This document shows, piece by piece, positions 6,765 through 32,263 of a DNA stretch of 64,000 nt (position 1 is the first letter of the stretch; the number at the start of each line of letters is the position of its first letter). Below the pieces are notes generated by a model. It saw only the letters and a program-made list of their open reading frames with translations, did no database searches and was not told where the DNA came from. Made by a program: the position numbers and the translations under genes. Source of the stretch: a virus; the IMG/VR virus record IMGVR_UViG_3300035698_035366, positions 62,001 through 126,000 of that record. One strand, written 5' to 3'.

Positions 6765-7085
6765 TTATTTTATAATCTTAAAAACTTCAAGCAAATCGAA
6801 CGGATCAATGTTTCTTTCGTTTGCAACAACAATAACCTTCTTAGCTTTATTAAGCCAGGTATTATGTGCATCTGATGGTGTCTCCCAAGAACCATAAAAC
6901 CAACTACATCCTTCAGCGTGATTATGATGGCATAGTGTTTCATGTAATTCCTCAGCGAGTCTACGATCATTGCTAAGTGCCATAAATCTTTGACGTTGTT
7001 TTTCACGTTTTTCTAATTCTTCGCGGAGATCTACAATCTCTCCTTCAATGCATTCTTCGATTGTCTCAAAACTTTGCGTAACCAT
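6765..7085 (-). CDS. Hypothetical coiled-coil protein
   Basis: The product has 106 residues from ATG 7085 (MVTQSFETIEECIEGE). The N-terminal third is a charged heptad-like helix (LREELEKREKQRQRF). The middle contains CHHNHAEGCSWFYGSW, a Cys/His cluster that could bind a metal. It overlaps the upstream gene by 20 bases. An alternative upstream start at 7100 is possible. Function unknown. Confidence 0.65.
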   Translation of the reverse strand: MVTQSFETIEECIEGEIVDLREELEKREKQRQRFMALSNDRRLAEELHETLCHHNHAEGCSWFYGSWETPSDAHNTWLNKAKKVIVVANERNIDPFDLLEVFKIIK

Positions 7086-7344
7086 TATCCTCTCCCACAA
7101 TTGTTATAATATCTCGAATCTTCTGTTGTAGAACTGTGATCTGTTGATCTCTCGATCTAATTTCTCTTTCATGATCTAAACGTGATACTGGCTCCAATTC
7201 TCTAATTCTAACAAACATTGGATTATTATAATCCTTTGCTTCTTTATCAGCCTTGGTTCTGGCAGATTTTTCATTCTTGGCATCAACGATAATATCAACA
7301 CTTTGATGGGGACCAACCTCATATATTGCCTCAAACTGTTTCAT
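7066..7344 (-). CDS. Hypothetical protein, 92 residues
   Basis: The N-terminus (KQFEAIYEVGPHQSVDIIVDAKNEKSARTKADKEAKDY) reads like a short beta-alpha domain resembling phage proteins that modify residue strings. The C-terminal half is a coiled coil (REIRSRDQQITVLQQKIRDII). It overlaps the next gene. No function can be assigned. Confidence 0.65.
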   Translation of the reverse strand: MKQFEAIYEVGPHQSVDIIVDAKNEKSARTKADKEAKDYNNPMFVRIRELEPVSRLDHEREIRSRDQQITVLQQKIRDIITIVGEDNGYAKF

Positions 7345-7407
7345 CTACCAATTACCTTCATAATGCCTTAATTTTTCTTCATCAGTAAAACCATCTCTTT
7401 GATCCAC
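7345..7407 (-). pseudogene. Remnant of a duplicated small gene (C-terminal fragment)
   Basis: On the minus strand this stretch encodes DQRDGFTDEEKLRHYEGNW-stop, clearly similar to the end of the 7601-7819 protein (QRDGGGFTDAEQLESAERAAGLRW). It has only a GTG start immediately after an in-frame TGA, so the N-terminal part is missing. It marks a local tandem duplication that has decayed. Confidence 0.5.
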
Positions 7408-7424
7408 TCAATGCGTGACCCGAT
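7398..7424. repeat. Copy 2 of the short direct repeat (ATGCGTGACC core)
   Basis: TTTGATCCACTCAATGCGTGACCCGAT is the second copy of the repeat at 6733-6760. It overlaps the start of the gene remnant at 7345-7407. Confidence 0.5.
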
Positions 7425-7427
7425 CTC

Positions 7428-7595
7428 TTACATGCAATCCAAAGCATATTCTTCTAACTCTTCAATATCTTGTCCCTTTGCCCATTTACAAAAAGCATGA
7501 AATTCATATTGTTTATAAAGTTTCGCAGCCTTGAATAACCCAAAGACTCGTTTCAATTGTAATTCCCTTTCAGGTAATGATAATTCTTTGCTCAT
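7428..7595 (-). CDS. Small hypothetical protein, 55 residues
   Basis: From ATG 7595, preceded by an AAGGTGG-like ribosome binding site at good distance, an uninterrupted 55-codon frame encodes MSKELSLPERELQLKRVF and ends ...LEEYALDCM. It fits tightly between the flanking genes on the same strand. Composition is that of a soluble helical protein. No function can be assigned. Confidence 0.6.
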   Translation of the reverse strand: MSKELSLPERELQLKRVFGLFKAAKLYKQYEFHAFCKWAKGQDIEELEEYALDCM

Positions 7596-7600
7596 TATCT

Positions 7601-7819
7601 TTACCACCTTAATCCAGCAGCACGTTCAGCAGATTCCAATTGTTCGGCGTCAGTAAACCCACCACCATCTCTTTGGGCGGCTTCTCGTGTCCAAGACGAT
7701 TCACTTGCTTCTTTCCGGTTCAATAGTTCTTTCATCCGATACATTTTCGTTGACAATTCCAGGACAAGAGAAATAAGTTCATCTTTTGATAACTTCTTTA
7801 ATTCCTCTAACGTTTTCAT
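7601..7819 (-). CDS. Small paralogous protein (MKxxELKxxSxDELI family), copy A
   Basis: The product has 72 residues. The N-terminus MKTLEELKKLSKDELISLVLEL resembles that of the 7870-8061 product, and the C-terminus resembles the remnant at 7345-7407, so at least three copies arose here by duplication. A promoter on the minus strand at 7839-7866 lies directly upstream. Function unknown. Confidence 0.7.
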   Translation of the reverse strand: MKTLEELKKLSKDELISLVLELSTKMYRMKELLNRKEASESSWTREAAQRDGGGFTDAEQLESAERAAGLRW

Positions 7820-7838
7820 TTTATTTTACCTCACTATT

Positions 7839-7866
7839 ATTATAACAATATTTTGTAAATTGTCAA
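7839..7866 (-). promoter_or_regulatory. Sigma70-like promoter
   Basis: On the minus strand TTGACA (7861-7866) and TATAAT (7839-7844) are separated by 16 bases. The promoter faces the small gene starting at 7819 and may drive the chain down to 4307. Confidence 0.65.
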
Positions 7867-7869
7867 CAT

Positions 7870-8061
7870 TTAATCACCGAAACCGCCATGGTAATAACTT
7901 TGTTTATCGTCTTGGACAAATGAATTTCCTAGTCGTTCGGCATATTCAGTATATATTTCTTCATCTGACCTTGCTGATAACCTTAGAATAGTCTTTGATT
8001 GCATCTCGATAATTGCAATCAATTCATCAACAGATTTTTCTTTCAATTCTTCTTTTTTCAT
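7870..8061 (-). CDS. Small paralogous protein (MKxxELKxxSxDELI family), copy B
   Basis: The product has 63 residues starting MKKEELKEKSVDELIAIIEMQ, a paralogue of the 7601-7819 product. The C-terminal half differs (QDDKQSYYHGGFGD). It overlaps the upstream gene by 4 bases (ATGA arrangement), so translation is coupled. Function unknown. Confidence 0.7.
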   Translation of the reverse strand: MKKEELKEKSVDELIAIIEMQSKTILRLSARSDEEIYTEYAERLGNSFVQDDKQSYYHGGFGD

Positions 8062-8324
8062 ATCTCTACCTCTTTAACCCAATTGTTGGCATCTTGCACA
8101 CATTCATCGTATGGAGTTGGTATATAACGGCTATTCTTTGAAGTCCACACTTGTCTACGCTTAGAACATACTGAACATTCTTGTCCGGTTAGGATACCGT
8201 ATCCATGAAATAGTTTCTTATCCACCCAATGACAATATCCGAGGTTATGGAGTTTCTTTCTAAAATATAGTCTTAATCTCGTTAACAAAGTTTTAATCCT
8301 TTGCCCAAAAACTCTTTGGCTCAT
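8058..8324 (-). CDS. Hypothetical protein with possible zinc site
   Basis: The product has 88 residues. The N-terminus is basic (RIKTLLTRLRLYFRKK). GYCHWVDKKLFHGYG followed by ECSVCSKRR gives Cys/His pairs that could form a zinc knuckle. The first codons overlap the end of the adenylyltransferase gene by 32 bases, as is common in this operon. Function unknown. Confidence 0.6.
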   Translation of the reverse strand: MSQRVFGQRIKTLLTRLRLYFRKKLHNLGYCHWVDKKLFHGYGILTGQECSVCSKRRQVWTSKNSRYIPTPYDECVQDANNWVKEVEI

Positions 8325-8910
8325 TAATACGGAATTCTTCTGGAAAATTATACTCTACAATTTTCCAATTAACCCGGGGAACCCATTCCTTCCAATCATC
8401 GGAGCGAAGTTCCAGAAAAGTTCGAAGATCAGTCGCTGCCGGAACTGGATTAGCGTTACGGTCCAAAACATGTAGGACTCGAGTAATTACATCGTCATTT
8501 ACATAATCCTGTCGGTTTTTCATACCAAACTGGTCATCGCATTTTTCTTCTGGCATAAAACGGCCTTCATACCAACGACCGTCGGCCCGGGATCCGGTAA
8601 AATAATCAGTTGGCTCGGGTAAACCAATCTTGGTTATCTTCTCCAAAATATAATCAACCCACTGGTTGGTTCCCTCAACAGTTCCAAGATCGTTTAGCTG
8701 AACGATTTTCAATCGATCACCGTACACATTTTGGACCATCTTCTTTCGTTCTTCGAACGTGTATGGATCCCACTTTTCACGGCTTTTCTGAGACGAGCCA
8801 ATGCACAGGATTGCGGTCTCATGATCCCGAATCATTTTATTGATGATCCGGCAATGCCCTTCATGTAGAGGTTGAATTCTCATTACCGCAAGTGCAATTC
8901 TTGTTACCAT
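8293..8910 (-). CDS. nadM: Nicotinamide/nicotinate mononucleotide adenylyltransferase-like protein (NadM type)
   Basis: The 205-residue protein is of the HxGH nucleotidyltransferase superfamily. HEGH at residues 16-19 (RIQPLHEGHCRII) is the nucleotide-binding motif; CIGSSQKSREKWDPYTFEERKKM is the typical NadM-type loop with the ISTxxxR-like helix replaced by the PYTFEERKKM sequence. It joins (nicotinate or nicotinamide) mononucleotide to AMP from ATP. Substrate preference cannot be read from the sequence. It lies in the NAD cluster between the Nudix and nicotinamidase genes. Confidence 0.85.
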   Translation of the reverse strand: MVTRIALAVMRIQPLHEGHCRIINKMIRDHETAILCIGSSQKSREKWDPYTFEERKKMVQNVYGDRLKIVQLNDLGTVEGTNQWVDYILEKITKIGLPEPTDYFTGSRADGRWYEGRFMPEEKCDDQFGMKNRQDYVNDDVITRVLHVLDRNANPVPAATDLRTFLELRSDDWKEWVPRVNWKIVEYNFPEEFRINEPKSFWAKD

Positions 8911-8922
8911 AATTTTATTCCT

Positions 8923-9390
8923 TCATCCGTCCGAAATAACCCAACCGCGCTGGATAGCCAGTTCAGCTAAATCGCTATGATTGAAAGCCAGGTTCATTTC
9001 GTCAATTTCGTCGATTGGAAATCCCCGAACTTCTGCTAAATCGTCCCCGGCCACCGCATTTACAGCTTCAATATGGGTGAGGTAAGCAATGTAGCAGGTA
9101 TTAACAACATGGCCACGCGGATCAGTTTTTGGATCCGAATGGACGTGATAAAGTTCAAGATCACCAATATGATAGTCGACGCCTGTCTCTTCTTTGAGTT
9201 CACGAACAGCACACTCTTCAGTAGTTTCGGTACCAATGTTTAGGAACCCACCAGGCATACACCACTGGCCAGGAAAAGTATCAACATCATCCCGGCGCCG
9301 ACCAAGCAACATATACATTTGCCCGTTGATGAAATAAATCGGTGCAACTGTTGATGTGTTATCACCCTTCGGATACTTATATTCAAACAT
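8923..9390 (-). CDS. Nudix hydrolase
   Basis: The product has 155 residues with a complete Nudix box: GGFLNIGTETTEECAVRELK followed by EETGV, which fits GX5EX7REUXEEXGU. The N-terminal part (LLGRRRDDVDTFPGQWCMPGG) is typical of ADP-ribose or NADH-type pyrophosphatases. Its position inside the NAD cluster favours a substrate such as ADP-ribose or a damaged dinucleotide. A minus-strand promoter lies at 9418-9445. Confidence 0.88.
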   Translation of the reverse strand: MFEYKYPKGDNTSTVAPIYFINGQMYMLLGRRRDDVDTFPGQWCMPGGFLNIGTETTEECAVRELKEETGVDYHIGDLELYHVHSDPKTDPRGHVVNTCYIAYLTHIEAVNAVAGDDLAEVRGFPIDEIDEMNLAFNHSDLAELAIQRGWVISDG

Positions 9391-9417
9391 TTTCTATTCT
9401 CCTTTTTGTGCAAACTA

Positions 9418-9445
9418 ATTATAACACATCATTGGTGGATGTAAA
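9418..9445 (-). promoter_or_regulatory. Sigma70-like promoter upstream of the Nudix gene
   Basis: On the minus strand TTTACA (9440-9445) and TATAAT (9418-9423) have a 16-base spacer. The promoter overlaps the end of the pncB-like gene and faces the Nudix and adenylyltransferase genes. Confidence 0.55.
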
Positions 9446-9448
9446 CCT

Positions 9449-10798
9449 TTACACCGTCACTTCCTGTTCACCGATACCAGCAACATCGAAAATTTTCTTA
9501 TACATCTCAATTGCTTCGGGTGTTCCAGTTGCCTTGTTGATGTTGTTGCTGAGTTTTACAGCGGGATTACCGTCTGCTTCAACTACTTTAATAACAACAC
9601 TGAATGGGCGGAATGCTTCTTCGAGTGTTAAATTGGTTCCGGGAACACAAAGTTCTGGATCAGGTACACAACCAATAAAATCATTCGTTAGGTTTGTTCC
9701 CCAACCATATGGTGTGGTGATTTGTTTCCGGAAATATCCCTGCAATTCAACAATGTCGGGATCATTTAGGCCATCTGAGAAAATATTCGTTTTCTTCAGA
9801 ATTTCTTCATTGTTCAAACCATTGTCACGCAACCACTCGATGAACTTTGTGGCTTCCGTGCGGGGATCGCCCGAGTCCTGACGCTGTCCTCTCCATGAGG
9901 TAACAACTTCCTGTCGAAGATCATCTGGCATACCAGCGTAAAACTGCTCGGATCCGAATGTATCAGGAAGCATGATTCGAAGACCCTTGTTAAACAGTGG
10001 GCCCCATTTCCGCAGGACATCATATTGTGCCATACGCTTCTTTTCGTAAGGGGCAATTGCCGTCATAATCATTGGAAGTTCATGGGCATTTGTACCAATT
10101 GGAACCAGGTCACCATTAAAAGCCATCCATGTATTGGAAGTGCCAACGAAACTAGCCTTCAAAACTTCCTGGCACATTTCGATAGCTTTCTTCTGCCAAA
10201 GGAAACTATGCCTGCGCCTCTGTCCAAAATCTGAAACCAATGCATCAGGAGCATTATCCCGAATATTACATAGCTTCTTGTATAGCTTATCAGTTGCGCG
10301 ACCGTACATGATGTCAATGTCTGTTGGTGACATAAGTTTCATTAGATTCCGGTAATAAAGTTCAGAAATAATGGCAAGAGCAATCGTTTCCCAATCCTTA
10401 GTCATCTGCCATGGACCGTAAAATTCAAGATTGAATTGATCACCTTCAACTGAAAGTGTGTATCCGGAAAGCTGTCTATTTTTCAAACTATCAATATAGC
10501 TTTCGGAGAACATATTCTTACCGTAAACATCCATACCACGAAGATAATAAATATCAGTCAAACGGTATTTTAGTGTTTGGACGTGGTCGAGTTGCTCACG
10601 TAATTGCTGTTCTGGGATAATTTTTGCCAACGGAATCGCCTTATTGCGATTGATTAGCTTAAACCGAACCATAACATTGTCCAGTTCATTTGCGTGGATA
10701 TACTGTCCCATCGTCAGTTTGTAAAAATCAATGTCCATAAGACTACGGACAATGTAATCCGACTGTTGATGGCGTACCTGTTGTGCGAAATCAGTCAT
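9449..10798 (-). CDS. pncB: Nicotinate phosphoribosyltransferase (PncB-like)
   Basis: The 449-residue enzyme makes nicotinate mononucleotide from nicotinate and PRPP. Family landmarks are visible: DIDFYKLTMGQ near the N-terminus, SDFGQRRRHSFLWQ, FVGTSNTW, GTNAHELPMI (containing the conserved His), RQDSGDP and FSDGLN. Full length. The start overlaps the upstream gene by 8 bases. Together with PncA, the adenylyltransferase and NAD synthetase it completes the Preiss-Handler salvage route. Confidence 0.92.
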   Translation of the reverse strand: MTDFAQQVRHQQSDYIVRSLMDIDFYKLTMGQYIHANELDNVMVRFKLINRNKAIPLAKIIPEQQLREQLDHVQTLKYRLTDIYYLRGMDVYGKNMFSESYIDSLKNRQLSGYTLSVEGDQFNLEFYGPWQMTKDWETIALAIISELYYRNLMKLMSPTDIDIMYGRATDKLYKKLCNIRDNAPDALVSDFGQRRRHSFLWQKKAIEMCQEVLKASFVGTSNTWMAFNGDLVPIGTNAHELPMIMTAIAPYEKKRMAQYDVLRKWGPLFNKGLRIMLPDTFGSEQFYAGMPDDLRQEVVTSWRGQRQDSGDPRTEATKFIEWLRDNGLNNEEILKKTNIFSDGLNDPDIVELQGYFRKQITTPYGWGTNLTNDFIGCVPDPELCVPGTNLTLEEAFRPFSVVIKVVEADGNPAVKLSNNINKATGTPEAIEMYKKIFDVAGIGEQEVTV

Positions 10799-11465
10799 TT
10801 TCTTTCTCCTTAACGAGCGTCATCATAAGCATTGGCATACCATATTTTGTAGAACTACCGCCTCTATAACACCTGGAATAAACTACGTCGTAGCCATATT
10901 TTTTAGCTAGGTTGTTTACAGCGAAACGCTGTATATCAGCTGCTGGTACACTATGCTTAGAATTGCGTTTATCCCATTGTTTTTGTTTATTGTTATATTG
11001 TTCCCACCAATATTGCAAATAATCATTGTTCTCGATATTAAGTCTAGCAGCAACTACGATATTGATAATGTCAACACCGTTTTCACTGCAAATTTTGATA
11101 GTACGTTCTTGATCCTCGTCGAAATTCTTGATACCATCATAATCAGCAACTCGCACCCTGACTTTTTTAGCAAACAAGTCTTCTAAAACGTCATTAAACA
11201 TTGCACGTTTAATATGCGGCCTAGCTGCTTGATTGGATACTTTACCACAAAGTCTAGTAGCAGCATTCATCAAACTTTTATATGCCTTAAAGTTCCAGTC
11301 GACGAAATGAAGCTGATCTAGGCTTCTAAAACCCAAACCATTGATAAATTCGTTGATATGGTTTTTGAAATTTGAGGGAGTACCCCCAGGAAGTGTTACG
11401 CACACACCTGAATCGAAACCTGCGGGATAAAGCTTATTGATTATTTCTGAATATTCAGAAATCAC
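10791..11465 (-). CDS. Hypothetical protein in the NAD operon; 5' end possibly frameshifted
   Basis: The product has 224 residues from a GTG at 11465 with only a weak binding site. The frame is open further upstream to about 11546. A strong AAAAGGAGAT site with ATG at 11560 opens an 11-codon frame that ends just after an A6 tract; a -1 shift at this tract would join it to this protein. The product has no recognised motif (KFGMPMLMMTLV-like C-terminus). It is translationally coupled to pncB. Confidence 0.6.
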   Translation of the reverse strand: MISEYSEIINKLYPAGFDSGVCVTLPGGTPSNFKNHINEFINGLGFRSLDQLHFVDWNFKAYKSLMNAATRLCGKVSNQAARPHIKRAMFNDVLEDLFAKKVRVRVADYDGIKNFDEDQERTIKICSENGVDIINIVVAARLNIENNDYLQYWWEQYNNKQKQWDKRNSKHSVPAADIQRFAVNNLAKKYGYDVVYSRCYRGGSSTKYGMPMLMMTLVKEKEND

Positions 11466-11524
11466 TTCATGCTTTTTCGGACTTCCGGTTTTAGCTTTAC
11501 CATTCTTATAATTCTTCGAATGTG

Positions 11525-11560
11525 TTATTCTTTTTTCATCTTTTCAATTTTAGAAATCAT
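11525..11560 (-). CDS. Short leader frame with strong ribosome binding site (possible 5' exon of the next gene)
   Basis: MISKIEKMKKE-stop is preceded by AAAAGGAGAT at 8 bases (11567-11576). It is either a leader peptide or the true N-terminus of the 10791-11465 protein separated by slippage on the AAAAAA tract. Confidence 0.4.
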   Translation of the reverse strand: MISKIEKMKKE

Positions 11561-11615
11561 TTCTGTATCTCCTTTTAAGAATAATGAGAAGGAAAATCGC
11601 TCTCTATCACTCTTC

Positions 11616-12551
11616 TTACTGTAGTATAGCAGGCTTATACTGATTGTCAAGGCTTGCCAATTTGGCAAATCTGGACTTATCAAGCGGGTTGTCCAAATAA
11701 GCTGGATTGTAACGCTTGAACGCACTTGCTTTCATACGTTCCGTTACTATCTCTAGAACCTGTTTGGATCGTTCGTCGTTAACTTCAACATCATCTGCGA
11801 GAATTGACATGGTCATAATGTCCCATTCAAGGTAAGAGCAACCAAACTGAGCTTCATCACCATCGTCAATACCTAAACCATCAGTAGGTTTAGCTGTATA
11901 GATGTTTTCAGGAACGCCAGCAAGTCGAGCCATCACAGGAACTTCCCATGACTTCCAAAGAGATTGAATTGGGCTAAGGTCGCCGACATCGCCATGTAGT
12001 GTCCAAAAACCAGCTGTTAATTCTGAAAAATTGTCAGTTGATGCAACGAGGCCACCGCGACCATTCGCATAGTTATAAAGGGTGATCATCCGTAGTTTCG
12101 CACGAATATTACCGTTCATAATGTCTTTGCGCCGGGCCTGACCAGTAAAGTTACCGTTGAGTTTTTCACTCATAACATCGTATTCATTGCTTAGATCGAC
12201 GATGTGGCTTTCAATTCCGAGAGAATTGCAGGCTTCAATACCACGTTCAGTCTCTTCTGGATTCTGATGAATCGGCATTACAACACCAATAACCGTCCAT
12301 CGTGCTTCTTTGAACAATGCGGCTGTAAGTGCGGAATCAACTCCGCCGCTCATACCAACAACCACAGTTGCAATAGATGCTTGATGACGATACGCAATCA
12401 GTGCATCAACAATACCTTCACGCATTTCTGCAATCTGTGCTTCGGTTTTAAAGGAATTATTTTGGATTAGCTTGTTAAGCTGCTGGTCCAACCAACCTGT
12501 TAGTGGACCTTGAGTATCCTGACGGGATACTGATAGGAGTGTATTCTTCAT
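11616..12551 (-). CDS. nadE: NAD synthetase (NadE-like, ammonia-dependent type)
   Basis: The 311-residue enzyme amidates nicotinate adenine dinucleotide to NAD. The PP-loop VVGMSGGVDSALTAALF (around residue 64) binds ATP. LVASTDNFSELTAGFWTLHGDVGDLSPIQSLWK matches the NaAD-binding region of NadE. There is no N-terminal glutaminase domain, so ammonia is the expected nitrogen donor. It is the first gene of the NAD cluster and has its own promoter at 12648-12676. Confidence 0.93.
   Translation of the reverse strand: MKNTLLSVSRQDTQGPLTGWLDQQLNKLIQNNSFKTEAQIAEMREGIVDALIAYRHQASIATVVVGMSGGVDSALTAALFKEARWTVIGVVMPIHQNPEETERGIEACNSLGIESHIVDLSNEYDVMSEKLNGNFTGQARRKDIMNGNIRAKLRMITLYNYANGRGGLVASTDNFSELTAGFWTLHGDVGDLSPIQSLWKSWEVPVMARLAGVPENIYTAKPTDGLGIDDGDEAQFGCSYLEWDIMTMSILADDVEVNDERSKQVLEIVTERMKASAFKRYNPAYLDNPLDKSRFAKLASLDNQYKPAILQ
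11623..11650 (-). promoter_or_regulatory. Sigma70-like promoter inside the 3' end of nadE
   Basis: On the minus strand TTGACA (11645-11650) and TATACT (11623-11628) are 16 bases apart. Transcription would begin near 11616 and run into the leader frame, the 10791-11465 gene and pncB. Confidence 0.6.
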
Positions 12552-12647
12552 TTTCTTTTACCTCACCTTCATGGGCAAATAGCCTTTAGTTGTGTCCTTG
12601 CGAACCAACAAGCGAGAATTGGATAATCCTAACTCTCTATAATATTA

Positions 12648-12676
12648 TTTATACACTGATTAATTTAATCTGTCAA
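12648..12676 (-). promoter_or_regulatory. Promoter upstream of nadE
   Basis: On the minus strand TTGACA (12671-12676), a 17-base spacer and TATAAA (12648-12653) are followed by TA, making the -10 also a TATAAATA late box. Early as well as late expression is possible. Confidence 0.6.
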
Positions 12677-12694
12677 TACTTTTTTCATATTTCT

Positions 12695-13168
12695 TTAAAA
12701 TTGTATCCCATCGTCGAATGGATTATCGATTTCTTCATCTAATTTATCATCTTCTAATTTATGTAGAATAGCAATTTCCTGAAGATCTAAATCACCGATT
12801 GCGTTTTTTGGTATAATGTTAGTTAATAATTCTTTTTGCCGGATATGCCGTAAATCGACTACCATTTCGTCTGCTTCGATGTTTTCGAACATAGTTAACG
12901 TTTTTATAAGCTTAATCGTTTTGAAATCAACATATATTGCTCCGGGCAGCTTTGTCTTTTTTCCAGATAGAAAATAATCACTACGCACCAGAGTCTTCCT
13001 GTACTTATTAATGGCTTCTTCGGTTGTGTCAAATTTTGTAGAATTAAACCAATCGCTTTGCCATCCCTCGTTCGAGTTCCAGAAGAATATTTCACCGGCA
13101 TTTTGTTGAATGCCTGAAGCTACCCAACAAAACCCATATTCGATAATATTTTCTTTCGAAATTTCCAT
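12695..13168 (-). CDS. Hypothetical acidic protein
   Basis: The product has 157 residues with an aromatic-rich N-terminus (YGFCWVASG, FFWNSNEGWQSDWF) and an acidic C-terminus (DDKLDEEIDNPFDDG). No motif is recognised. It is the first minus-strand gene left of the divergent head operon. Confidence 0.6.
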   Translation of the reverse strand: MEISKENIIEYGFCWVASGIQQNAGEIFFWNSNEGWQSDWFNSTKFDTTEEAINKYRKTLVRSDYFLSGKKTKLPGAIYVDFKTIKLIKTLTMFENIEADEMVVDLRHIRQKELLTNIIPKNAIGDLDLQEIAILHKLEDDKLDEEIDNPFDDGIQF

Positions 13169-13458
13169 ATTTTAAGATACCAAGAATTAATTTCGTACAT
13201 TTATATTATTATGATAACAATATTTTTGTTAAAAATCAATACAAATTTATGTCATTGAAATACTGTTAAAAAACCGAACAGAGTTCATATAGTTACTGCA
13301 AAATTGAGAAAACTACGTAGATTTTAAAAAAACGTTAAAAAAACGAGCATAAAACCGCAATATTTCAATAATTATGTAAATAGATATATGTAGTTATGCC
13401 ACTAAAGGTATGATTACGTGTTCTGTTTTAGAAACTTATAACGTAAGGAGAGTTTAAC
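13169..13458. other. Divergent intergenic region between early-type and late operons
   Basis: About 290 AT-rich bases without a supported gene. It contains an AT-rich promoter-like stretch for the minus-strand gene and, on the plus strand, a TGTAAATA late box (13375-13382) followed by AAGGAG just before ATG 13459. I see no stable hairpin. Confidence 0.5.
13375..13382 (+). promoter_or_regulatory. Late promoter box of the head operon (TGTAAATA)
   Basis: The TGTAAATA box lies 77 bases before the core protein gene. It is the only candidate for the four-gene head operon that ends at the terminator 17668-17696. Confidence 0.4.
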
Positions 13459-14469
13459 ATGAGTTTACAAAAGAAGCTAGAAAAACTTCATGCTCTCATC
13501 ATCAACGAAGAACATGAAAAGGCCGAGGCACTATTTCATGAGGCTTTCGTTGAAGCTGCCCGTTCAGTACACAAGAATTTCATGGAAGAAGAAGATTTGA
13601 TGTCAGAAGACGTCTTCGATGAAAATGATGTGGACGCCGCAACAGATGAGATTGAAGATGAAGAAATGTTCGCAGAAGACGAATTCGAAGATGATGATTT
13701 TGAAAGCGACGAAGACGACGCCGAAGATGATCTAGAAACCGAAATGTCAGATGACGACATGGATATGGACATGGACGACGAAGCTGAAGAAGGCGAAGAA
13801 GGCGATGTTGAAGAGCGCCTTGAAGACCTTGAATCAGAAATCGAGCGTCTACAGGCTGAATTCGAAGAATTGATGGGTGTTGAAGAAAAAGAACACGATG
13901 AAGATTTCGATGATGACGGTGTAATTGGTGACGAAGAAGTTTCGGATGAAGAAGTTGAAGACGACGAATTTGAAGACGACGAGGAAGTTGAAGAAGGTGT
14001 TTTTGAATCCGATGATGACGATGAAGACGATGACGATTCACTAGAAGAAGCATTCGACGAACTAGACGAAAGTTTTGAACTAGAAGATGTTAAGAATGAA
14101 AATTCTGAAGATGCAATTGGTACCGGTGGAAAAGAGAGTTTCTCTCCAAACGCACCAGACAACACAGTTCTTCCAAAGAAGTCAGCTAACACAATGGATG
14201 CAAAGCCTCAGAAGATTGGTCAAGGCCCAACTCATAAGGGTTATGACCGTGAAGATGCACCTTCTACATCAAAGATGAAAGCTCGTAAGAACGTTCGTAG
14301 TAAGTCTACTGACGATACAAAGAGTGTATCTAAAGAAGGTGATGCGGGCGCAGCTCTAAACAAGGATTATGCAGGTAATAAGGGTAACCAAAAGAGCCCA
14401 TATGTATCCGCTAAGAATGTTACAGAGAGCAAGAAGACACCAACACGTCGACGTGCTACAAAGAAATAA
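13459..14469 (+). CDS. Highly acidic prohead core protein candidate
   Basis: The product has 336 residues. The N-terminus is a short amphipathic helix, residues about 50-210 are dominated by Asp and Glu, and the C-terminal third is basic and Ser/Lys-rich. Strongly acidic core proteins co-assemble with scaffold in T4-type proheads and are later cut by the prohead protease; its position just before the protease supports that. Antisense frames rich in Ser are mere complements of the Asp/Glu codons. AAGGAG precedes the start. Confidence 0.65.
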   Translation: MSLQKKLEKLHALIINEEHEKAEALFHEAFVEAARSVHKNFMEEEDLMSEDVFDENDVDAATDEIEDEEMFAEDEFEDDDFESDEDDAEDDLETEMSDDDMDMDMDDEAEEGEEGDVEERLEDLESEIERLQAEFEELMGVEEKEHDEDFDDDGVIGDEEVSDEEVEDDEFEDDEEVEEGVFESDDDDEDDDDSLEEAFDELDESFELEDVKNENSEDAIGTGGKESFSPNAPDNTVLPKKSANTMDAKPQKIGQGPTHKGYDREDAPSTSKMKARKNVRSKSTDDTKSVSKEGDAGAALNKDYAGNKGNQKSPYVSAKNVTESKKTPTRRRATKK

Positions 14470-16404: not shown

Positions 16405-17640
16405 ATGACTAAACTTTTTGAATCACAGTGGAAGAAGACAAAGTCCGCTCTTTGCGAAGGCAGAGATTTAGAATTTAACCAGGATGGTTCCCGTAACGAA
16501 ACTAAGAAAGCAGTTATGGAAACAATTTTGGAAAACACACACAGAGAAATGACCCGTCTGGGTCAGATGCCTTTGATGGAAACAGCAACAGCGGGATCAT
16601 CTTCTGCTGGTAATATTGCTACTCTAAACAAGGTTATTCTACCAGTTATCCGTCGTGTTATGCCAACCGTTATTGCTAACGAAATTATTGGTGTTCAACC
16701 AATGACAGGACCAGTAGCTCAGATTCATACACTTCGCGTTCGCTACGGCGACACTGTTCCATCACTAGGTGGCGGTGTAACAGCAGGTAACGAAGCACTA
16801 TCACCATTTGATATCGCTCGTTATTACTCAGGTAATGAAGATGTAACAACTCCACTAGCTGCTCCTACAGCACGTCTAGAAGGTGTTCCAGGCAACCGCT
16901 TGAACATTGAAATCCTAAAGGAAGTTGTTGAAGCTAAGACACGTCGTCTATCCGCACGTTGGACCTTTGAGGCTCAGCAGGATGCACAGGCACAGCAGGG
17001 CATCGACATTGAAGCAGAAATTCTTGCAGCATTAGCTCAGGAAATTACCGCTGAAATTGACCAGGAAATTCTTGGTTCCCTACGTCGTCTACCAGGCGCA
17101 CCAACAATTACCTTTACACAGGGTACAGTTACAGGTACTCCAACATTCGTTGGTGACACCCACGCTGCCCTAGCAGTTCTAATCAACCAGCAGGCCAACC
17201 TAATCGCTGCACGTACACGTCGTGGCGCAGGTAACTGGGTTGTTGTTTCTCCAACTGCTCTAACCGTTCTACAGTCTGCTACAACATCAGCATTCGCACG
17301 TACAACTGAAGGTGTTTTCGAAGCACCAACAAACACAAAGTTCGTTGGTACTCTTAACTCTTCAATGCGCGTTTATGTTGATCAGTATGCAGATGATGCA
17401 ACCCCAGTCCTAGTTGGATATAAGGGTGATGGTGAAATTGATGCCGCAGCTTATTACTGCCCATATGTTCCACTAACATCTTCTGGTGTTGTTATTGATC
17501 CACAGACATTCGAGCCAGTCGTATCCTTCATGACACGTTATGGCTACCTAGAGCTAACCAACTCCGCTACCTCTCTTGGTAACGCTGCTGATTACCTAGG
17601 CCTAATCGGAATCGACACTGCAACTCTAAAGTTCCAGTAA
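16405..17640 (+). CDS. Major capsid protein (T4 gp23-like)
   Basis: The 411-residue protein has the T4-type landmarks VILPVIRRVMPTVIANEIIGV (residues 78-97), EAKTRRLSARWTFEAQQDA (176-194), DIEAEILAALAQEITAEIDQ (201-220) and VGYKGDGEIDAAAYYCPYVP (337-356). LMET near residue 58-61 is the likely maturation cleavage region. Codon use is GC-richer than that of the neighbours, as expected for very high expression. A GGGAGAG site precedes the start, and a strong terminator follows. Pieces of this sequence recur in the mini-gene array at 19441-20511. Confidence 0.95.
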   Translation: MTKLFESQWKKTKSALCEGRDLEFNQDGSRNETKKAVMETILENTHREMTRLGQMPLMETATAGSSSAGNIATLNKVILPVIRRVMPTVIANEIIGVQPMTGPVAQIHTLRVRYGDTVPSLGGGVTAGNEALSPFDIARYYSGNEDVTTPLAAPTARLEGVPGNRLNIEILKEVVEAKTRRLSARWTFEAQQDAQAQQGIDIEAEILAALAQEITAEIDQEILGSLRRLPGAPTITFTQGTVTGTPTFVGDTHAALAVLINQQANLIAARTRRGAGNWVVVSPTALTVLQSATTSAFARTTEGVFEAPTNTKFVGTLNSSMRVYVDQYADDATPVLVGYKGDGEIDAAAYYCPYVPLTSSGVVIDPQTFEPVVSFMTRYGYLELTNSATSLGNAADYLGLIGIDTATLKFQ

Positions 17641-17667
17641 GATATACCGACGAAAGTCAAAAGAACG

Positions 17668-17696
17668 AACCCGGGGCTTTATGCCTCGGGTTTTTC
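17668..17696 (+). terminator. Rho-independent terminator after the capsid gene
   Basis: A 10-pair stem (AACCCGGGGC with GCCTCGGGTT, loop TTTAT) is followed by T-rich sequence. It overlaps the end of the convergent endonuclease gene. Confidence 0.85.
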
Positions 17697-19334
17697 TTTA
17701 TTCCATACCCAAACATTATTGCCACAATCCCATATTCTATCATACCCAATTGTTTGCATATATTTCCATTCAGATAAGTCTGTTTTTGGTAATTTTTTCT
17801 TTTGATATTTATAACGTGATTCCCTGATTTCATAATTTCGTGTATATGAATATCCTGGAGATGTCATTTTTTTGAATTTGAATTTATTATGTTTGTACAC
17901 ATTACCATTACCGTATCTTAAATCAGCATATGATAATATAGTATCCGGATCATTATTCTTTATAAAATAATTTAATAACCTTGAAAATCCACCAGTAACA
18001 GTTGTTCCTTGCAAGGAAGTAAATCTAGTCAATTCCCATTCATATGATCTATCAAATCTGGATTTTGAAAATGATGCAACTGATACCAGTGAATCGTCAT
18101 ATACTAAACCAATGTTTATAAGCGAATTTATATGGCCCTGTATATGATTTTTATTATGAAATTTTTGAACATCAGAATTGGATAACTCATTTATGGAACA
18201 TTTTCTTGCCATCAATTTGTTGTTAAAAATTCCCAATTTAGCCGATATAACCGATTTAACAATATCTTGTTTTTGTTTCCATTCATCACTAAAAATTGTT
18301 ATAAGTCTGATTCCTTTATCATTACATTTTACAAATTTATCTTGATGGTATTTTGGATGTTTCGATGAACTTAATTCAGAATGCCAATACAAACCACAAT
18401 ATTCAATTGCAATATTATTATCTGGAATTAATATATCCAATTCATATGGATTAATTAATGATCTATCTCCTGACAATGCATTTACACCTAATGATTTTAC
18501 AAAATCAAATACTTCTAGTTCTTCTCTAGATTTATAAATTACAGGCGTAGGGTTGCATATTTTGCACTCGGGACGTCGACCATTATCAATATACGTGGAG
18601 AACGTATGATCACAACTTATACATTCAAAATCATAATATTTTTGATTTGAAACACCTTCATATAAATCAATTGGTGTTATAAACTTTATATTACAATTTT
18701 CTTTATAATATTCATTTAATTTTAGATATGAAATTCTTTTGAAATGCTCATTCGTATACAATTTTCTTCTAGTTGCTGCTGATTTCCTAGCTACAACTGG
18801 ATCCACCATTGGGTTTTTTTCAGTCAACCGTTTCATAACGTGGGGGAGATGGGCAGCATTTTCAACACCATATCTATCCATCATTGTTTGTTTATGTGTA
18901 GCTAGTTGTTTTTTTATATTATTCTGACTTGCGTAGAAAATCTGGTGTTGTTTTCGAGCATGTTCTGATTGCCCAGCGTTTTCTACACCATATTTTTCTA
19001 AATTTGTTTGATACCTTTTTTCATTAATTTGGTCCTTTTCTTCTTTGTTATATGATTGTTTGGACTGACTTACCTTTTCGGAGACCGTTTTTCTTGCGCA
19101 CTCGCATACACCAGTCCTACCGCAGAACTTATATCCTCTAACAATTGAATCGAATTTTTTCGTATTACCATTAACGCAAATGTTTAATCCTGGATAGATT
19201 TTATTATACACAAATTCTGCAAAAGGAGACGAGTTATCAAACGCAAGCCAATCCATTATTTCAGGATCTTTTTTCAAAAACCTTGAATAATGTTTTGGAT
19301 AATCGTCAATTGTCTTTAGTATTTTATCCCGCAT
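17679..19334 (-). CDS. Free-standing homing endonuclease of the Vsr-like (EDxHD) type
   Basis: The product has 551 residues. The N-terminal half has repeated DNA-binding-like segments (RYGVENAAH, KYGVENAGQ) and a zinc-like ECISCDH...CKIC region. The nuclease core LINPYELDILIPDNNIAIEYCGLYWHSE...RLITIFSDEWKQK matches the Vsr/EDxHD fold, and the C-terminal domain resembles known companions of such enzymes. It sits directly after the capsid gene in the opposite direction, a usual insertion site for a mobile nuclease. A TATAAATA box (19377-19384, minus) lies upstream. Confidence 0.82.
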   Translation of the reverse strand: MRDKILKTIDDYPKHYSRFLKKDPEIMDWLAFDNSSPFAEFVYNKIYPGLNICVNGNTKKFDSIVRGYKFCGRTGVCECARKTVSEKVSQSKQSYNKEEKDQINEKRYQTNLEKYGVENAGQSEHARKQHQIFYASQNNIKKQLATHKQTMMDRYGVENAAHLPHVMKRLTEKNPMVDPVVARKSAATRRKLYTNEHFKRISYLKLNEYYKENCNIKFITPIDLYEGVSNQKYYDFECISCDHTFSTYIDNGRRPECKICNPTPVIYKSREELEVFDFVKSLGVNALSGDRSLINPYELDILIPDNNIAIEYCGLYWHSELSSSKHPKYHQDKFVKCNDKGIRLITIFSDEWKQKQDIVKSVISAKLGIFNNKLMARKCSINELSNSDVQKFHNKNHIQGHINSLINIGLVYDDSLVSVASFSKSRFDRSYEWELTRFTSLQGTTVTGGFSRLLNYFIKNNDPDTILSYADLRYGNGNVYKHNKFKFKKMTSPGYSYTRNYEIRESRYKYQKKKLPKTDLSEWKYMQTIGYDRIWDCGNNVWVWNKEKPEA

Positions 19335-19394: not shown

Positions 19395-19433
19395 AATAAA
19401 TAATATTGACTATTACTTGATCATTACTATAGA
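19395..19433 (+). promoter_or_regulatory. Candidate promoter(s) of the mini-gene array
   Basis: AATAAATA at 19395-19402 is a possible late box. TTGACT (19406-19411) with TATAGA (19428-19433), 16 bases apart, is a possible sigma70-type promoter. The latter would start transcription almost at the first ATG (19441). Confidence 0.35.
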
Positions 19434-19440
19434 ATATAAT

Positions 19441-19590
19441 ATGGATAATAAAAACGATAAAGAAATTAAAGTTACAATGTCAAAAACCCAAGTCTTGGCG
19501 AAGAATAGAGCATTAAGTGCTGACTGGACATTTGAAATTCTTCAAGATCTTCAAACCAATCAGGCCAATCCAAAGGAATGTTATGAGTAA
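19441..19590 (+). CDS. Mini-gene 1: capsid-like fragment with ANPKECYE tail
   Basis: The 49-residue product contains QVLAKNRALSADWTFEILQD, which aligns with capsid protein residues 175-193 (VEAKTRRLSARWTFEAQQD) and even more closely resembles the RALxAxxTxELAQDL consensus of T4-type capsid proteins. It ends QANPKECYE. The ATG at 19441 has no clear ribosome binding site, and an internal ATG at 19477 is an alternative start. The stop overlaps the ATG of mini-gene 2. Confidence 0.7.
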   Translation: MDNKNDKEIKVTMSKTQVLAKNRALSADWTFEILQDLQTNQANPKECYE

Positions 19591-19744
19591 TAAACCAGCA
19601 CAACCGCAAAATTGGATTTCGAATGATATTAATGTAGGACTCCATTTTCCAAGCAAGGGGATAGGAAAATTATCATTCAGGAACTCAAAAGAAATTTTAT
19701 TAAATATGACTAATAGAGCGGAACCAAAGGAATGTTATGAGTGA
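19583..19744 (+). CDS. Mini-gene 2: unique peptide with AEPKECYE tail
   Basis: The 53-residue product starts MSNKPAQPQNWISNDINVG. ATG 19583 lies 3 bases inside the tail of mini-gene 1, with AAAGGA 6 bases upstream. The body has no match to other proteins in the window that I can detect. It ends NRAEPKECYE. Longer upstream reading in this frame lacks a suitable start. Confidence 0.7.
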   Translation: MSNKPAQPQNWISNDINVGLHFPSKGIGKLSFRNSKEILLNMTNRAEPKECYE

Positions 19745-19892
19745 CATAAAAAATAAAGAATATAACAAATTGATCTTTTCAGATATTATTAATGGTCAAA
19801 TTATGCATGAAACAAAGTTCATCAATATTAATAATTGGCAACTTCATAAATATCGAATTAATGAATGTAATCCAAAGGAATGCTATGAATAA
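19737..19892 (+). CDS. Mini-gene 3: unique peptide with CNPKECYE tail
   Basis: The 51-residue product starts MSDIKNKEYNKLIFSDIING and ends INECNPKECYE. Start and ribosome binding site are provided by the tail repeat of mini-gene 2 (ATG overlapping TATGAGTGA). Body unmatched in this window. Confidence 0.7.
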   Translation: MSDIKNKEYNKLIFSDIINGQIMHETKFININNWQLHKYRINECNPKECYE

Positions 19893-20034
19893 AATAAAAC
19901 CATCAATCTTTAACGTTGAGGAAGAACTACGTGAAATATTAGCTGCTGAAATATCGCAGGAAATAGATCGGGAAATTATGGAAAAAATTTATAAAGAAAT
20001 GGAAAAAGCTAATCCAAAGGAGTGTTATGAGTGA
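19885..20034 (+). CDS. Mini-gene 4: capsid-like fragment with ANPKECYE tail
   Basis: The 49-residue product contains FNVEEELREILAAEISQEID followed by REIM, aligning with capsid protein residues 201-223 (DIEAEILAALAQEITAEIDQ, then EIL). It starts MNKIKPSI and ends KANPKECYE. Translation start overlaps the stop of mini-gene 3. Confidence 0.75.
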   Translation: MNKIKPSIFNVEEELREILAAEISQEIDREIMEKIYKEMEKANPKECYE

Positions 20035-20197
20035 TATATATAACGAAATAGAAAATATAGTTCACGGTTTGGTGGGATATAAAGGAAAAATGAAATATGA
20101 ATCCGCCACTTTTTATTGCCCATATGTTCCATTAACATCATTTGGGGTTATAGATCAAACCGATAATTATGCTAATCCAAAGAATTGCTATGAATAA
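20027..20197 (+). CDS. Mini-gene 5: capsid-like fragment with ANPKNCYE tail
   Basis: The 56-residue product contains LVGYKGKMKYESATFYCPYV followed by PLTSFGVID, aligning with capsid protein residues 336-365 (VGYKGDGEIDAAAYYCPYVP then LTSSGVVID). The DNA is also similar here (TATTGCCCATATGTTCCA is nearly the same in both). It ends NYANPKNCYE, a variant of the tail. Confidence 0.75.
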   Translation: MSDIYNEIENIVHGLVGYKGKMKYESATFYCPYVPLTSFGVIDQTDNYANPKNCYE

Positions 20198-20360
20198 TTC
20201 AAATAATTCAAATAATCCTAATCAGGTATTGTTACCAATAATTCGAAGAATTATGCCTAATCTAATTGCTAATGAAATTATCGGAGTTCAACCAATGACA
20301 GGGGAAACGGGGGCGATTTTCACAGGTAATAGAGCAAATCCAAAGCATTGTTATGAATAA
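20190..20360 (+). CDS. Mini-gene 6: capsid-like fragment with ANPKHCYE tail
   Basis: The 56-residue product has an Asn/Ser-rich start (MNNSNNSNNPNQ), then VLLPIIRRIMPNLIANEIIG and VQPMTGETGAIF, aligning with capsid protein residues 77-103. The capsid gene and this frame share long nearly identical DNA here (GTTCAACCAATGACAGG). It ends RANPKHCYE. Confidence 0.75.
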   Translation: MNNSNNSNNPNQVLLPIIRRIMPNLIANEIIGVQPMTGETGAIFTGNRANPKHCYE

Positions 20361-20511
20361 ATTTAAAAAACAGGTTGAAATTTTAGAAGAAGCACAACAC
20401 GTTTTTCTTAAATTATCACCGTGGACAAAAAACCTTAGCGAGTTGCAAATGGATATTAATTATATCCTAGATAAAGTTGAGCAATGTAACCCTAAAAATA
20501 GTTACGAATAA
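20353..20511 (+). CDS. Mini-gene 7: last member, CNPKNSYE tail without downstream gene
   Basis: The 52-residue product starts MNKFKKQVEILEEAQHVFLK and ends VEQCNPKNSYE. Its tail is encoded by AACCCTAAAAATAGTTACGA, which has lost the ribosome binding site and the overlapping ATG yet still encodes nearly the same peptide. That indicates selection on the peptide itself. Body unmatched in this window. Confidence 0.7.
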   Translation: MNKFKKQVEILEEAQHVFLKLSPWTKNLSELQMDINYILDKVEQCNPKNSYE

Positions 20512-25485: not shown

Positions 25486-27609
25486 TTAAGCGTCTGTTGC
25501 GATTATTTCATCAACAATGTTCTTTGGTACTTCTGTATATTTTTCAAGATGCATTGTAAATGTTGCGCGCCCTGAAGTCATACTCCGTAATGCAGTCATA
25601 TAGCCAAACATTTCCGAAAGTGGAACGTTTGCTTCTACAACAACTGCGCTACCACGTGCATCTTGTCCAAGAATTAATCCACGACGTCGACTAATATCAC
25701 CAATAACGTCTCCTAGGTAATCATTCGGAGTAACCACTTCAACCATCATCAATGGTTCAAGTAGAACTGGTCCGGCTTTTTTAGCAGCTTCTCGGAAGCA
25801 AGCCTTCGCCGCAATTTCGAACGCAAGAGCACTAGAATCAACATCATGATATTTTCCGTCGATTAGTGTCACTTTAAAGTCCAAAGTTGGATAACCAGCG
25901 ACAACACCGCTCTTGCCTTGTTCTCTAAAACCATCTTCAACGGCTGGGACGTATTCTCTTGGAACATTACCACCCGTAACAAGATTTTCGAACGAATAAC
26001 CAGCACCTGGTTCATTTGGACCAATTGTAACCTTAATTTCAGCAAACTGTCCTGAACCACCAGACTGCTTACGGTGAGTATAAGTATGCTCGACGTCCCT
26101 CGTTAATGTTTCACGATAAGCAACTTTTGGCTTACCGATGTTACATGCAACATCGTATTCACGCATCATGCGGTCGATAATAATGTCTAGGTGTAGTTCA
26201 CCCATACCACTAAGAATGGTTTGCCCGGACTCTTCATCGAGCTTTAGACGCAAGCTTGGATCTTCCTTGCCGAGCTTATTGAGTGCAATGCCCATCTTCT
26301 GCTGGTCAGCTTTGGTTTTTGGTTCAACCGCAATATCAATCACTGGTTCAGGAAAGATCATTCGTTCAAGCACGCATGGTTTATTAATATCACATAATGT
26401 ATCACCAGTCGTAGAGTCCTTTAGACCAACGAACGCAACAATGTCACCCGCCACCACACCGTCAATATTTTCACGACTATTGGCATGCATTTCAACGATG
26501 CGACCAAGACGTTCATTTTTTCCTCGTGTTGAATTTAGTACCGTAGTTCCGGAACTGGCTGTACCAGAATAAACACGGGCGAATGCGAGAGAACCGAATT
26601 TGTCTTCAATAATTTTGAAAACAAGCGCACTAAATGGCTCATTGTCTGAAGATTTTCGAACTCCACTAACTTCACCATCTTCATCGACTGTATTGATATT
26701 ATCAACATCGGTTGGTGCTGGCATATAATCAACGACTGCGTCAAGTAATGGCTGAACGCCTTTATTCTTGAAAGCAGAACCGCACAGGATTGGTACAAAT
26801 AACCCATTAACTGTACCCTTTCGGATGCACTTAATTAATGTATCAAAATCCAAATCACCATTTTCAAAATATGATTCCATAGCATCATCATCGGCGCCAG
26901 CAGCATCTTCGATTAGTTTTTCGCGAAGTTCTGTGATACGCTCAATAACGTCTTTATCTTCCGCAATCAAATCCATATCTGCAATTCGTTTGGAAAATTC
27001 ATCGCTGGTTACATCAACTTCATCCCATGTCGCTCCCAAATCTTCACCATGATAAAACAGTCCTTTCATAGTGACAAGGTTCACAATCCCTTCGAATTTT
27101 TCTTCAGAACCCATAGGAAGTTGTGTAATAAGCGGCGTAGCAGCAAGACGGCTTTCAATCATGTCAACACACCGCATGAAGCTGGCACCATCACGGTCCA
27201 TCTTGTTAATAAAACACATACGGGGAACGTTGTATTGATCAGCTAAACGCCAATTTGTTTCGGACTGTGGCTCAACCCCAGCAACACCGTCAAAAACAAC
27301 AACAGCACCATCAAGCACGCGAAGTGAACGATTTACCTCAATCGTGAAGTCAACGTGTCCTGGAGTATCGATAATATTGATTTGATGATCTCGCCAGAAG
27401 ACAGTAGTTGCAGCGGAGGTAATAGTAATACCACGCTCTTGCTCTTGTGCCATATAATCAGTGGTGGCGGCGCCATCATGTACTTCACCAATTTTATGGC
27501 CCTTTCCGGTGTAGTATAGAATACGTTCGGTTGTGGTGGTTTTACCTGCATCGACGTGGGCGATAATACCAATATTCCGGTACATATTCAAGGGTTTATT
27601 GCGAGCCAT
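25486..27609 (-). CDS. fusA: Translation elongation factor G
   Basis: The 707-residue protein is a full-length canonical EF-G. G domain: [19 protein letters not shown] (P-loop), [10 protein letters not shown] (switch I), DTPGHVDF (G3), NKMD (G4), and [10 protein letters not shown]. Domains II-V follow, with [20 protein letters not shown] and RRRGLILGQ near the C-terminus. It catalyses ribosome translocation. All GTPase motifs are intact, so it should be active. It is unusual in a phage genome. It is expressed from a minus-strand promoter at 27655-27685 that includes a TATAAATA late box. Confidence 0.97.
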
Positions 27610-27726: not shown

Positions 27727-28032
27727 ATGAACGAGTTAACTGTACTGCATTCAATGATCGCCATTGAAATTACTGAAAAAGAAAGAAAGTCCGATGGTGG
27801 TATCTTTCTACCAGATGCCCATGAGGTTCTTCCAATGGAGGGCGTAGTGTCTTCCCTTGGGATTGGAAGCTGGGTTGAAAATGAAAAAACTGGAACCCTT
27901 GAAAGAGATACTTTTCAGGTTAAGGTTGGTGACCACGTTATTTTCTCTCCGAACACACCAATTGAATTGGAAGTTGGTGAGAAAAAATATTATCTGCTAG
28001 AAGAAAAGAATATTATTGGAATTATTGTATGA
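27727..28032 (+). CDS. GroES-like co-chaperonin
   Basis: The 101-residue protein has the Cpn10 fold pattern: an N-terminal strand, the mobile-loop region EKERKSDGGIFLPD, the GVVSSLGIG turn, then VKVGDHVIFSPNTPIELEVG and a terminal strand (NIIGIIV). T4 encodes an analogue (gp31) needed to fold the capsid protein with host GroEL; a similar role is likely. It overlaps the next gene by 4 bases. AAAGGA precedes the ATG. Confidence 0.88.
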   Translation: MNELTVLHSMIAIEITEKERKSDGGIFLPDAHEVLPMEGVVSSLGIGSWVENEKTGTLERDTFQVKVGDHVIFSPNTPIELEVGEKKYYLLEEKNIIGIIV

Positions 28033-31208: not shown

Positions 31209-31520
31209 ATGAAAAAATTGATCGATTCGGAGACATTCCGCAATGAGAAGTCTCTTCCCTTCTATTATATAAAGCTCGAGGAGCGGTTATATTCTGGTAT
31301 GAAACGCGATATCGTCGACAAATGGATTGATGAAAACATTTCCGGAGATTGGTGGTATACTGACGGTCTAACCTACGTATTCTCTACTAAGGAAGATTCG
31401 GTTCTTTTTGCATTGCATTACAAATCGGGATTATTTTCGGCTGATAACGGAAACCTTGAATTCATAAGAGACAATTGGCTTGAAGAACTTAGTGAGTCGT
31501 CGGAGGGTTTGGAAGAGTAA
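31209..31520 (+). CDS. Small protein of the C-terminal-motif family (motif internal)
   Basis: The product has 103 residues. The family motif YVFSTKEDSVLFALHYKSG is followed here by about 25 more residues (LEFIRDNWLEELSESSEGLE). The end overlaps the convergent MscS-like frame by 32 bases. Function unknown. Confidence 0.7.
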   Translation: MKKLIDSETFRNEKSLPFYYIKLEERLYSGMKRDIVDKWIDENISGDWWYTDGLTYVFSTKEDSVLFALHYKSGLFSADNGNLEFIRDNWLEELSESSEGLEE

Positions 31521-31897: not shown

Positions 31898-32263
31898 ATG
31901 GGTAATCGTCTAACAGCCATGCAATGGTCAAAAATCAAAAAAGATTTTCCGGAAATTGCTAAATCAGCAACAAAGGTTATTCTTGATTTTGAAAGCCGTA
32001 TTTTTAAGATTCATTATCGACGGTTTAAGAAATTGAAAAACAAAACACCGGATGGAAAATCCGGTATAATTAATGACACAATGCTTGAAATTATGGATTG
32101 GTGCGAAGAAGTGTTGGATGGTGACTTTTATATCACTGCCTCATCAAACAGCCCATTAACAAGTGAGCGACGTTCAGCAACCTTTTATTTTGCTGAAGAT
32201 AGTGATGCAACCTTGTTTACACTAACCTGGTTGAATAGTAAGGGTATTGTCGATAGCAAGTAG
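31898..32263 (+). CDS. Protein of the C-terminal-motif family
   Basis: The product has 121 residues and ends ATFYFAEDSDATLFTLTWLN then SKGIVDSK. The N-terminal part is helical and basic. ATG 31898 lies very close to its promoter; ATG 31919 (MQWSKIKKDF) is an alternative. Function unknown. Confidence 0.7.
   Translation: MGNRLTAMQWSKIKKDFPEIAKSATKVILDFESRIFKIHYRRFKKLKNKTPDGKSGIINDTMLEIMDWCEEVLDGDFYITASSNSPLTSERRSATFYFAEDSDATLFTLTWLNSKGIVDSK

Follow-up and report, generated by a model that had tools for sequence, protein, structure and literature searches.

Results

The window analysed here, a stretch of 64,000 nucleotides of phage DNA, carries between positions 19441 and 20511 seven small open reading frames of 49 to 56 amino acids (u1 to u7) whose stop and start codons overlap and every one of which ends in PKxxYE-stop, as a first-pass annotation had described. 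Written out, the tail pattern of the seven units is [A/C][N/E]PKx[C/S]YE-stop, and the lengths of u1 to u7 and of an eighth member found elsewhere in the genome (u8) were counted from the ATG taken as start. The array, its surroundings and u8 comprise the following features.

16405-17640, plus strand: MCP gene encoding the gp23-type major capsid protein (MCP), source family of the u1, u4, u5 and u6 bodies
17667-17693, plus strand: terminator-like hairpin 3' of the MCP gene (consensus match)
17679-19334, minus strand: HNH homing endonuclease gene, between the MCP gene and the array
19406-19435, plus strand: candidate sigma70-like promoter TTGACT-18-TAGAAT 5' of the array (consensus match only)
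19441-19590, plus strand: u1, 49 amino acids, MCP 166-198 segment and ANPKECYE
19583-19744, plus strand: u2, 53 amino acids, body without match and AEPKECYE
19737-19892, plus strand: u3, 51 amino acids, body without match and CNPKECYE
19885-20034, plus strand: u4, 49 amino acids, MCP 201-226 segment and ANPKECYE
20027-20197, plus strand: u5, 56 amino acids, MCP 336-362 segment (GYKG..CPYVPLT) and ANPKNCYE
20190-20360, plus strand: u6, 56 amino acids, MCP 75-109 segment and ANPKHCYE
20353-20511, plus strand: u7, 52 amino acids, body without match and CNPKNSYE, no overlapping gene 3' of the stop
genome 190283-190432: u8, 49-amino-acid frame ending in ADPKNCYE, 5' of an RNA ligase gene and 108 kb from the array

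The tail DNA had been proposed to double as ribosome binding site for the next frame. This is the case for u2 to u5, whose Shine-Dalgarno sequences are located in the tail DNA (-5.6 to -8.2 kcal/mol), but not for u6 and u7, where the Shine-Dalgarno sequence is weak (-0.9 and -0.1 kcal/mol, respectively) and which must therefore use translational coupling. For u1, a Shine-Dalgarno sequence was looked for and is absent, and the ATG lies immediately 3' of a TATAAT, so the start of this unit is uncertain. Direct repeats in the array are limited to the tails and their immediate flanks, and the array is therefore not a simple tandem duplication. The structure of the array, with MCP pieces and a common tail, is well supported, and the function of its units is what we infer below.

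The terminator-like hairpin after the MCP gene suggests that array transcripts do not simply continue from MCP. The HNH homing endonuclease gene and the array form one AT-rich island of mostly 28-32% GC, compared to about 45% in the MCP gene, and since the best relatives of the endonuclease (33% identity) are also placed after MCP in PA5oct-like phages, this is a recurrent insertion site. The motif GCTAAATA is found 5' of several structural genes (genome 83154, 109646, 123244 and others) and is perhaps the late promoter of this phage, and a distinct TTGACA-16-TATAAT promoter class is common elsewhere in the genome. A search with PADLOC of the eight units and their neighbouring genes gave no match to known anti-phage defence proteins.

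Other genes in the window include one for a phage-encoded elongation factor G of 707 amino acids (25486-27609) and a portal gene of 1000 codons (1043-4045), to which the portal profile matches at 2-261 and 253-433 in one frame; the insertion that splits the match looks intein-like. On the minus strand, at 6106-12551, lies an NAD+ salvage-like set (nicotinamidase-like, NMN adenylyltransferase-like, nicotinamide phosphoribosyltransferase and NadE-like), which would fit a phage that faces defences of the kind discussed below, although such a connection is circumstantial.

The bodies of u1, u4, u5 and u6 had been read as capsid protein segments, and both profiles used here agree. All four exceed the Pfam cut-off for Gp23 (PF07068), with E-values of 1.6e-7, 2.9e-6, 1.9e-9 and 1.3e-11, respectively, and an MCP profile built from 39 MCPs scored them at 28, 26, 41 and 58 bits, whereas shuffled bodies, 200 per unit, stayed at or below 5.4 bits. 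The units span 30-36 of the 376 positions of PF07068 apiece and are thus not full-length, shell-building proteins. The aligned pieces are 26-35 residues long and share 42-69% identity with the phage's own MCP; together, the bodies retain 43 of the 56 residues that are invariant across the MCP clade, while their synonymous sites have moved far from those of the own MCP (pS 0.64, pN 0.30). These comparisons show that the four bodies descend from a gp23-type MCP, and we read at least these four as mimics of the segments that are best conserved among capsid proteins of this type. The u6 segment corresponds to about residues 83-117 of T4 gp23, in the neighbourhood of Gol, which we take to be about codons 93-122 of the T4 gene.

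The remaining bodies, those of u2, u3 and u7, had been left without a match earlier and gave none above noise in Pfam, PHROGs, the phage collection or the MCP and portal profiles. As candidate pieces of MCP or portal, u2, u3, u7 and u8 gave no signal above shuffles, a result that for MCP is limited by detectability. A resemblance of u2 to a T4 gp26-type baseplate protein ('FPSKG') was rejected on a negative profile score, and u8 is not a copy of its upstream neighbour, the similarity being no better than that of shuffles. An AlphaFold model of the MCP made from 11 sequences reached a pLDDT of 38.5 and was set aside. Which MCP regions show up is largely set by detectability, and the recurrence of the same regions is therefore partly a detection effect; for this reason we make no claim that only those regions are used, and the bodies without a match may also come from MCP.

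A recent capture of the pieces from the adjacent capsid gene does not find support. Among 121 MCPs, the phage's own ranked only 32nd for u1, 119th for u4, 11th for u5 and 76th for u6, the set for the last being biased as many of the MCPs had been fetched using u6, and the MCP pieces of Sinorhizobium phage Phosso and of G002 likewise do not favour the MCP of their own genome. That no piece is closest to the own MCP would also fit a use in competition, where the mimics would bind or cap the capsid subunits, and in relatives also those of the portal, when a T4-type phage infects the same cell, and so poison the head assembly of that phage. The segments are the most conserved of MCP, which would widen the range of targets, a few portal pieces are found as well, and blocking of assembly between phages is documented, though for tails (PMC10884400, PMC11364771). 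However, pieces of the length and identity given above are a poor basis for co-assembly, and the phage's own capsid would also be hit unless the effect were timed or counteracted, and no counter-protein was identified. We regard this explanation as rather unlikely.

Of 6087 stop-to-stop frames in this genome with 25 codons or more, exactly 8 end in PK..YE, namely u1 to u7 and u8, and the recurrence of this ending is not chance. The earlier suggestion that the tail peptide is under selection is borne out by a comparison of the tails (pN 0.16, pS 0.66). The last seven codons of u7 differ from the consensus at 8 nucleotides and 2 residues (P about 0.0006), and CNPKNSYE is indeed kept through the codons AAC, CCT, AAA and TAC; the tail of u8, diverged in nucleotide sequence with the peptide kept, follows the same trend by randomisation (P 0.005-0.02), all of these P values being approximate for such short sequences, in which gene conversion is possible. 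Neither u7 nor u8 has an overlapping downstream gene, and the peptide is kept in both, so selection acts on the peptide itself, beyond the DNA. The comparisons thus show a tail conserved at the peptide level, independent of gene overlap, a case that the separate location of u8 strengthens. Together with the matches of the bodies, this supports the earlier view that segments of the capsid protein carry one shared peptide at their C terminus.

The tail family is known from one phage genome. Scans of IMG/VR found the tail pattern only in contigs that are identical to this phage. Further phage records that were searched contained no array or clustered tail matches and a few lone single-site matches, and no report of the tail was found in the open-access literature. 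In bacterial genomes, a 14-base tail pattern gave 24 matches in 257 Gb, compared to about 30 calculated for chance; two of these stand in an 'FDPKKCYEY' context, presumably PilY1-like, and were judged a coincidence. The tail is not a tmRNA tag either, since it is encoded within each gene and a tmRNA was not found. The constant Cys-Tyr-Glu C terminus could be taken to mean that the units are precursor peptides that are modified, or attached by their C terminus, at the tail Cys or the terminal Glu, and in Phosso one MCP-piece gene, gene 276, is located among radical SAM genes (L228:1371-7692). We find this very improbable, as u7 has Ser in place of Cys, neither the array nor u8 has a recognisable peptide-modifying enzyme next to it, and a Pup-like GG-E/Q terminus is lacking (by eye).

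By the first-pass annotation, absence of the array and its tail from all relatives would count against its reading. The tail is indeed absent from the relatives searched, but stand-alone MCP pieces with other partners were found in all six records of at least 290 kb that are close by MCP, namely Phosso and G031, G032, G033, G036 and G037 (290-543 kb, among the closest by MCP). The search was a whole-record Gp23 profile search with E-values per genome, and the relatives include metagenome-derived records; smaller contigs without matches are fragments that say little, and G000 may be incomplete. Phosso carries MCP pieces in gene 170 (9e-6) and gene 276 (2.4e-9), the latter apparently annotated too short, with the piece 5' of the annotated start. 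The piece in G033 is the weakest of the other five (9.7e-4 with Pfam, 2e-5 with the MCP profile). In G002, one gene of 116 amino acids contains both the u1 and the u4 segment, in this order (2.7e-8), and G004 has a weak MCP-piece gene (0.0025). Mimics of the Gol type, corresponding to the same part of MCP as u6, are found in G031, G032, G037 and Phosso. No stand-alone pieces were found in about twelve other jumbo phages, where only the MCP itself was matched (RaK2, 121Q, GAP32, PA5oct, XbC2, Kae01, PHA46, XaC1, BF, CBB, Kaldavass, Vibrio phage 2.275.O and Atu_ph07), or in T4, which gave only gp23 and gp24. As judged from these searches, MCP pieces in separate small genes are a feature of the clade and the NPKxxYE tail is not.

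These distributions also bear on the possibility that the units are accessories of the phage's own assembly, acting on assembly timing, through engagement of a chaperone or EF-Tu, or by packaging into the prohead via the common tail. The array adjoins the MCP gene, a gene for a GroES-like protein lies in the window (27727-28032), and the Gol region of T4 binds EF-Tu (PMC3014915). Still, the own MCP is nearest to none of the pieces, a terminator-like hairpin and a candidate promoter separate MCP from the array, the mimic genes of relatives are situated far from MCP, and the other jumbo phages searched and T4 manage without mimics, which makes such a role quite improbable in our view.

The partners of the MCP pieces vary. 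In Phosso gene 170 and one gene of G037, a C-terminal domain with the ending LFKLTF/FKMCW comes after the MCP piece, and G031 has two adjacent genes, of the LFKLTW kind by eye, with u5-like and u4-like pieces. A domain of the LFKLTW type (DAxLFKLTW) forms the C terminus of 44 small genes here and of 65 in Phosso. The N termini of these genes are unrelated, and the members are often organised in overlapping tandem arrays. Examples of the family are the following.

window 31898-32263: LFKLTW-family example
window 31209-31520: LFKLTW-family example
L068:15207-15488: LFKLTW-family example
Phosso 113159-114922: LFKLTW-family example
Phosso 6664-14020: LFKLTW-family example

No significant Pfam match to the domain was obtained among the members scanned, no NPKxxYE unit was among the members found, and when the N termini were compared with large phage proteins, a single MCP piece was all that clearly beat the shuffled control. 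The mimic of G032 (MSNNSNNKCIMPIVRRIMPNLVAGQLVGVQPM...) shares an NNSN start with u6 and scores 141 against it, compared to 112 for the best of the 121 MCPs, and carries a partner domain that differs from the u6 tail and is apparently related to one in G031. As this mimic is closer to u6 than to any MCP tested, the mimic itself is inherited while its partner changes. The sequences thus show MCP pieces repeatedly grafted into small genes and joined to varied partners.

Other core families served as controls. DNA polymerase B gave no separate small fragments in nine genomes of this set and neither did the sheath, a control that is limited by a weak sheath profile. For the portal, Pfam matches to small genes were weak, and with a clade profile an 82-amino-acid gene of G037 (6.5e-6) and a 254-amino-acid gene of G031 (4e-4) were convincing, with the motif seen by eye in two further genes. 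Portal pieces (e.g., GRGSHVKTLPGG and KAPERKIFAID) thus occur in unrelated small genes of G037, G031 and G033, at the following positions.

L365:438-683: portal-piece gene
L362:761-1522: portal-piece gene
L363:949-1782: portal-piece gene
L361:697-1764: portal-piece gene

In a scan of 62 core families made without bias, which covered this genome, Phosso and G031 up to 400 kb, fragments came most often from MCP, with five true matches, while the other families gave at most one or two each with artefacts set aside, matches from the ends of 20-kb pieces or from antisense frames having been discounted by eye. These controls are relevant to the idea that the array is a by-product of gene birth in a gene-rich clade, in which gene fragments are glued to ready-made tails with a ribosome binding site and have little function, MCP pieces being over-represented since they are highly conserved and detectable. 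The dozens of small genes in this phage and Phosso whose N termini are unrelated and whose C-terminal domain is shared, the limits that detectability sets on what is visible, and the use of the tail DNA as ribosome binding site and start would all agree with this. The constraint on bodies and tail, the retention of u6 and the G032 mimic across phages, the lack of fragments from the conserved polymerase and the prominence of MCP among the 62 families speak against it, and we judge it distinctly unlikely.

Discussion

Our tentative proposal, possible rather than probable, is that the units are decoys of a 'bait plus handle' type, aimed at a component that detects conserved surfaces of MCP, possibly a capsid-sensing form of immunity. 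Each microprotein would consist of a variable N-terminal body as the bait and the constant C-terminal peptide [A/C][N/D/E]PKx[C/S]YE as the handle, and the mimics would compete for a component of the infected cell with affinity for conserved parts of MCP; a host factor or an immune sensor that recognises the capsid protein is the likeliest candidate. The common tail might give all baits one fate, e.g., a common partner, oligomerisation or degradation, and capsid-triggered defence would be blunted with the phage's own capsid unchanged. Head poisoning of competitors is the main rival of this proposal, followed by gene-birth noise and roles in the phage's own assembly.

Several known systems make a capsid decoy conceivable. 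Portal and terminase trigger Avs proteins. The Gol segment of T4 gp23 binds EF-Tu and triggers the Lit protease, which leads to exclusion through cleavage of EF-Tu (PMC3014915); here a short conserved gp23 segment acts alone via protein binding, and u6 represents the same part of MCP. In contrast to the array segment, which is a separate phage gene with other partners, Gol sits within the full-length MCP and triggers host suicide. MCP also triggers CapRel (PMC9712102) and staphylococcal Thoeris, which depletes NAD+ (PMC11312562), and in both the conserved capsid protein is a ligand for cellular factors; these are host sensors, whereas the mimics would be decoys on the phage side, of which we found no description in the open-access literature. 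Against the decoy proposal stand the bodies of u2, u3, u7 and u8, which have no explanation in it, the occurrence of the tail in one phage genome, and the part that detection plays in which MCP regions recur. Moreover, 30-residue pieces would not deceive a sensor that reads the capsid in its folded or assembled state, and a peptide resembling Gol could switch a Lit-type system on instead of inhibiting it.

Set beside the array units by description, Tab and Tai, from prophages and satellites, are likewise small phage-encoded blockers of another phage's virion assembly, but they block tails and come with antidotes (PMC10884400, PMC11364771). A close likeness in organisation is that of the LFKLTW arrays, with a variable N terminus, a constant C terminus and overlapping tandem genes, and with MCP pieces in the variable region in Phosso, G037 and (by eye) G031; there, what stays constant is a whole domain (about 40-50 amino acids), whereas the NPKxxYE units have an 8-residue peptide instead. 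In Vibrio phage 2.275.O (L076:7734-10243), four small genes after MCP end in T[YW]ELL and two of these tails hold the start codon of the next gene, but their bodies resemble usual paralogues from a single family and contain no MCP segment. The jumbo-phage clade could keep an interchangeable arsenal in which conserved capsid and portal pieces are joined to a few constant C-terminal handles (NPKxxYE, LFKLTW and others) and serve as decoys against sensors or rivals, a suggestion that we make with reserve.

If the decoy proposal is true, phages bear separate genes that imitate the parts of their proteins by which they are recognised. This would be a general means of counter-defence or a weapon between phages, and would show which capsid surfaces are surveyed, and short segments of core proteins within accessory genes would be a searchable signature for new immune triggers. 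The arsenal, if real, would give bacterial viruses a counterpart, at the protein level, of antigen mimicry. Even without a function, the conserved pieces of one virion protein have been grafted repeatedly into small genes, with the mimic inherited apart from its partner.
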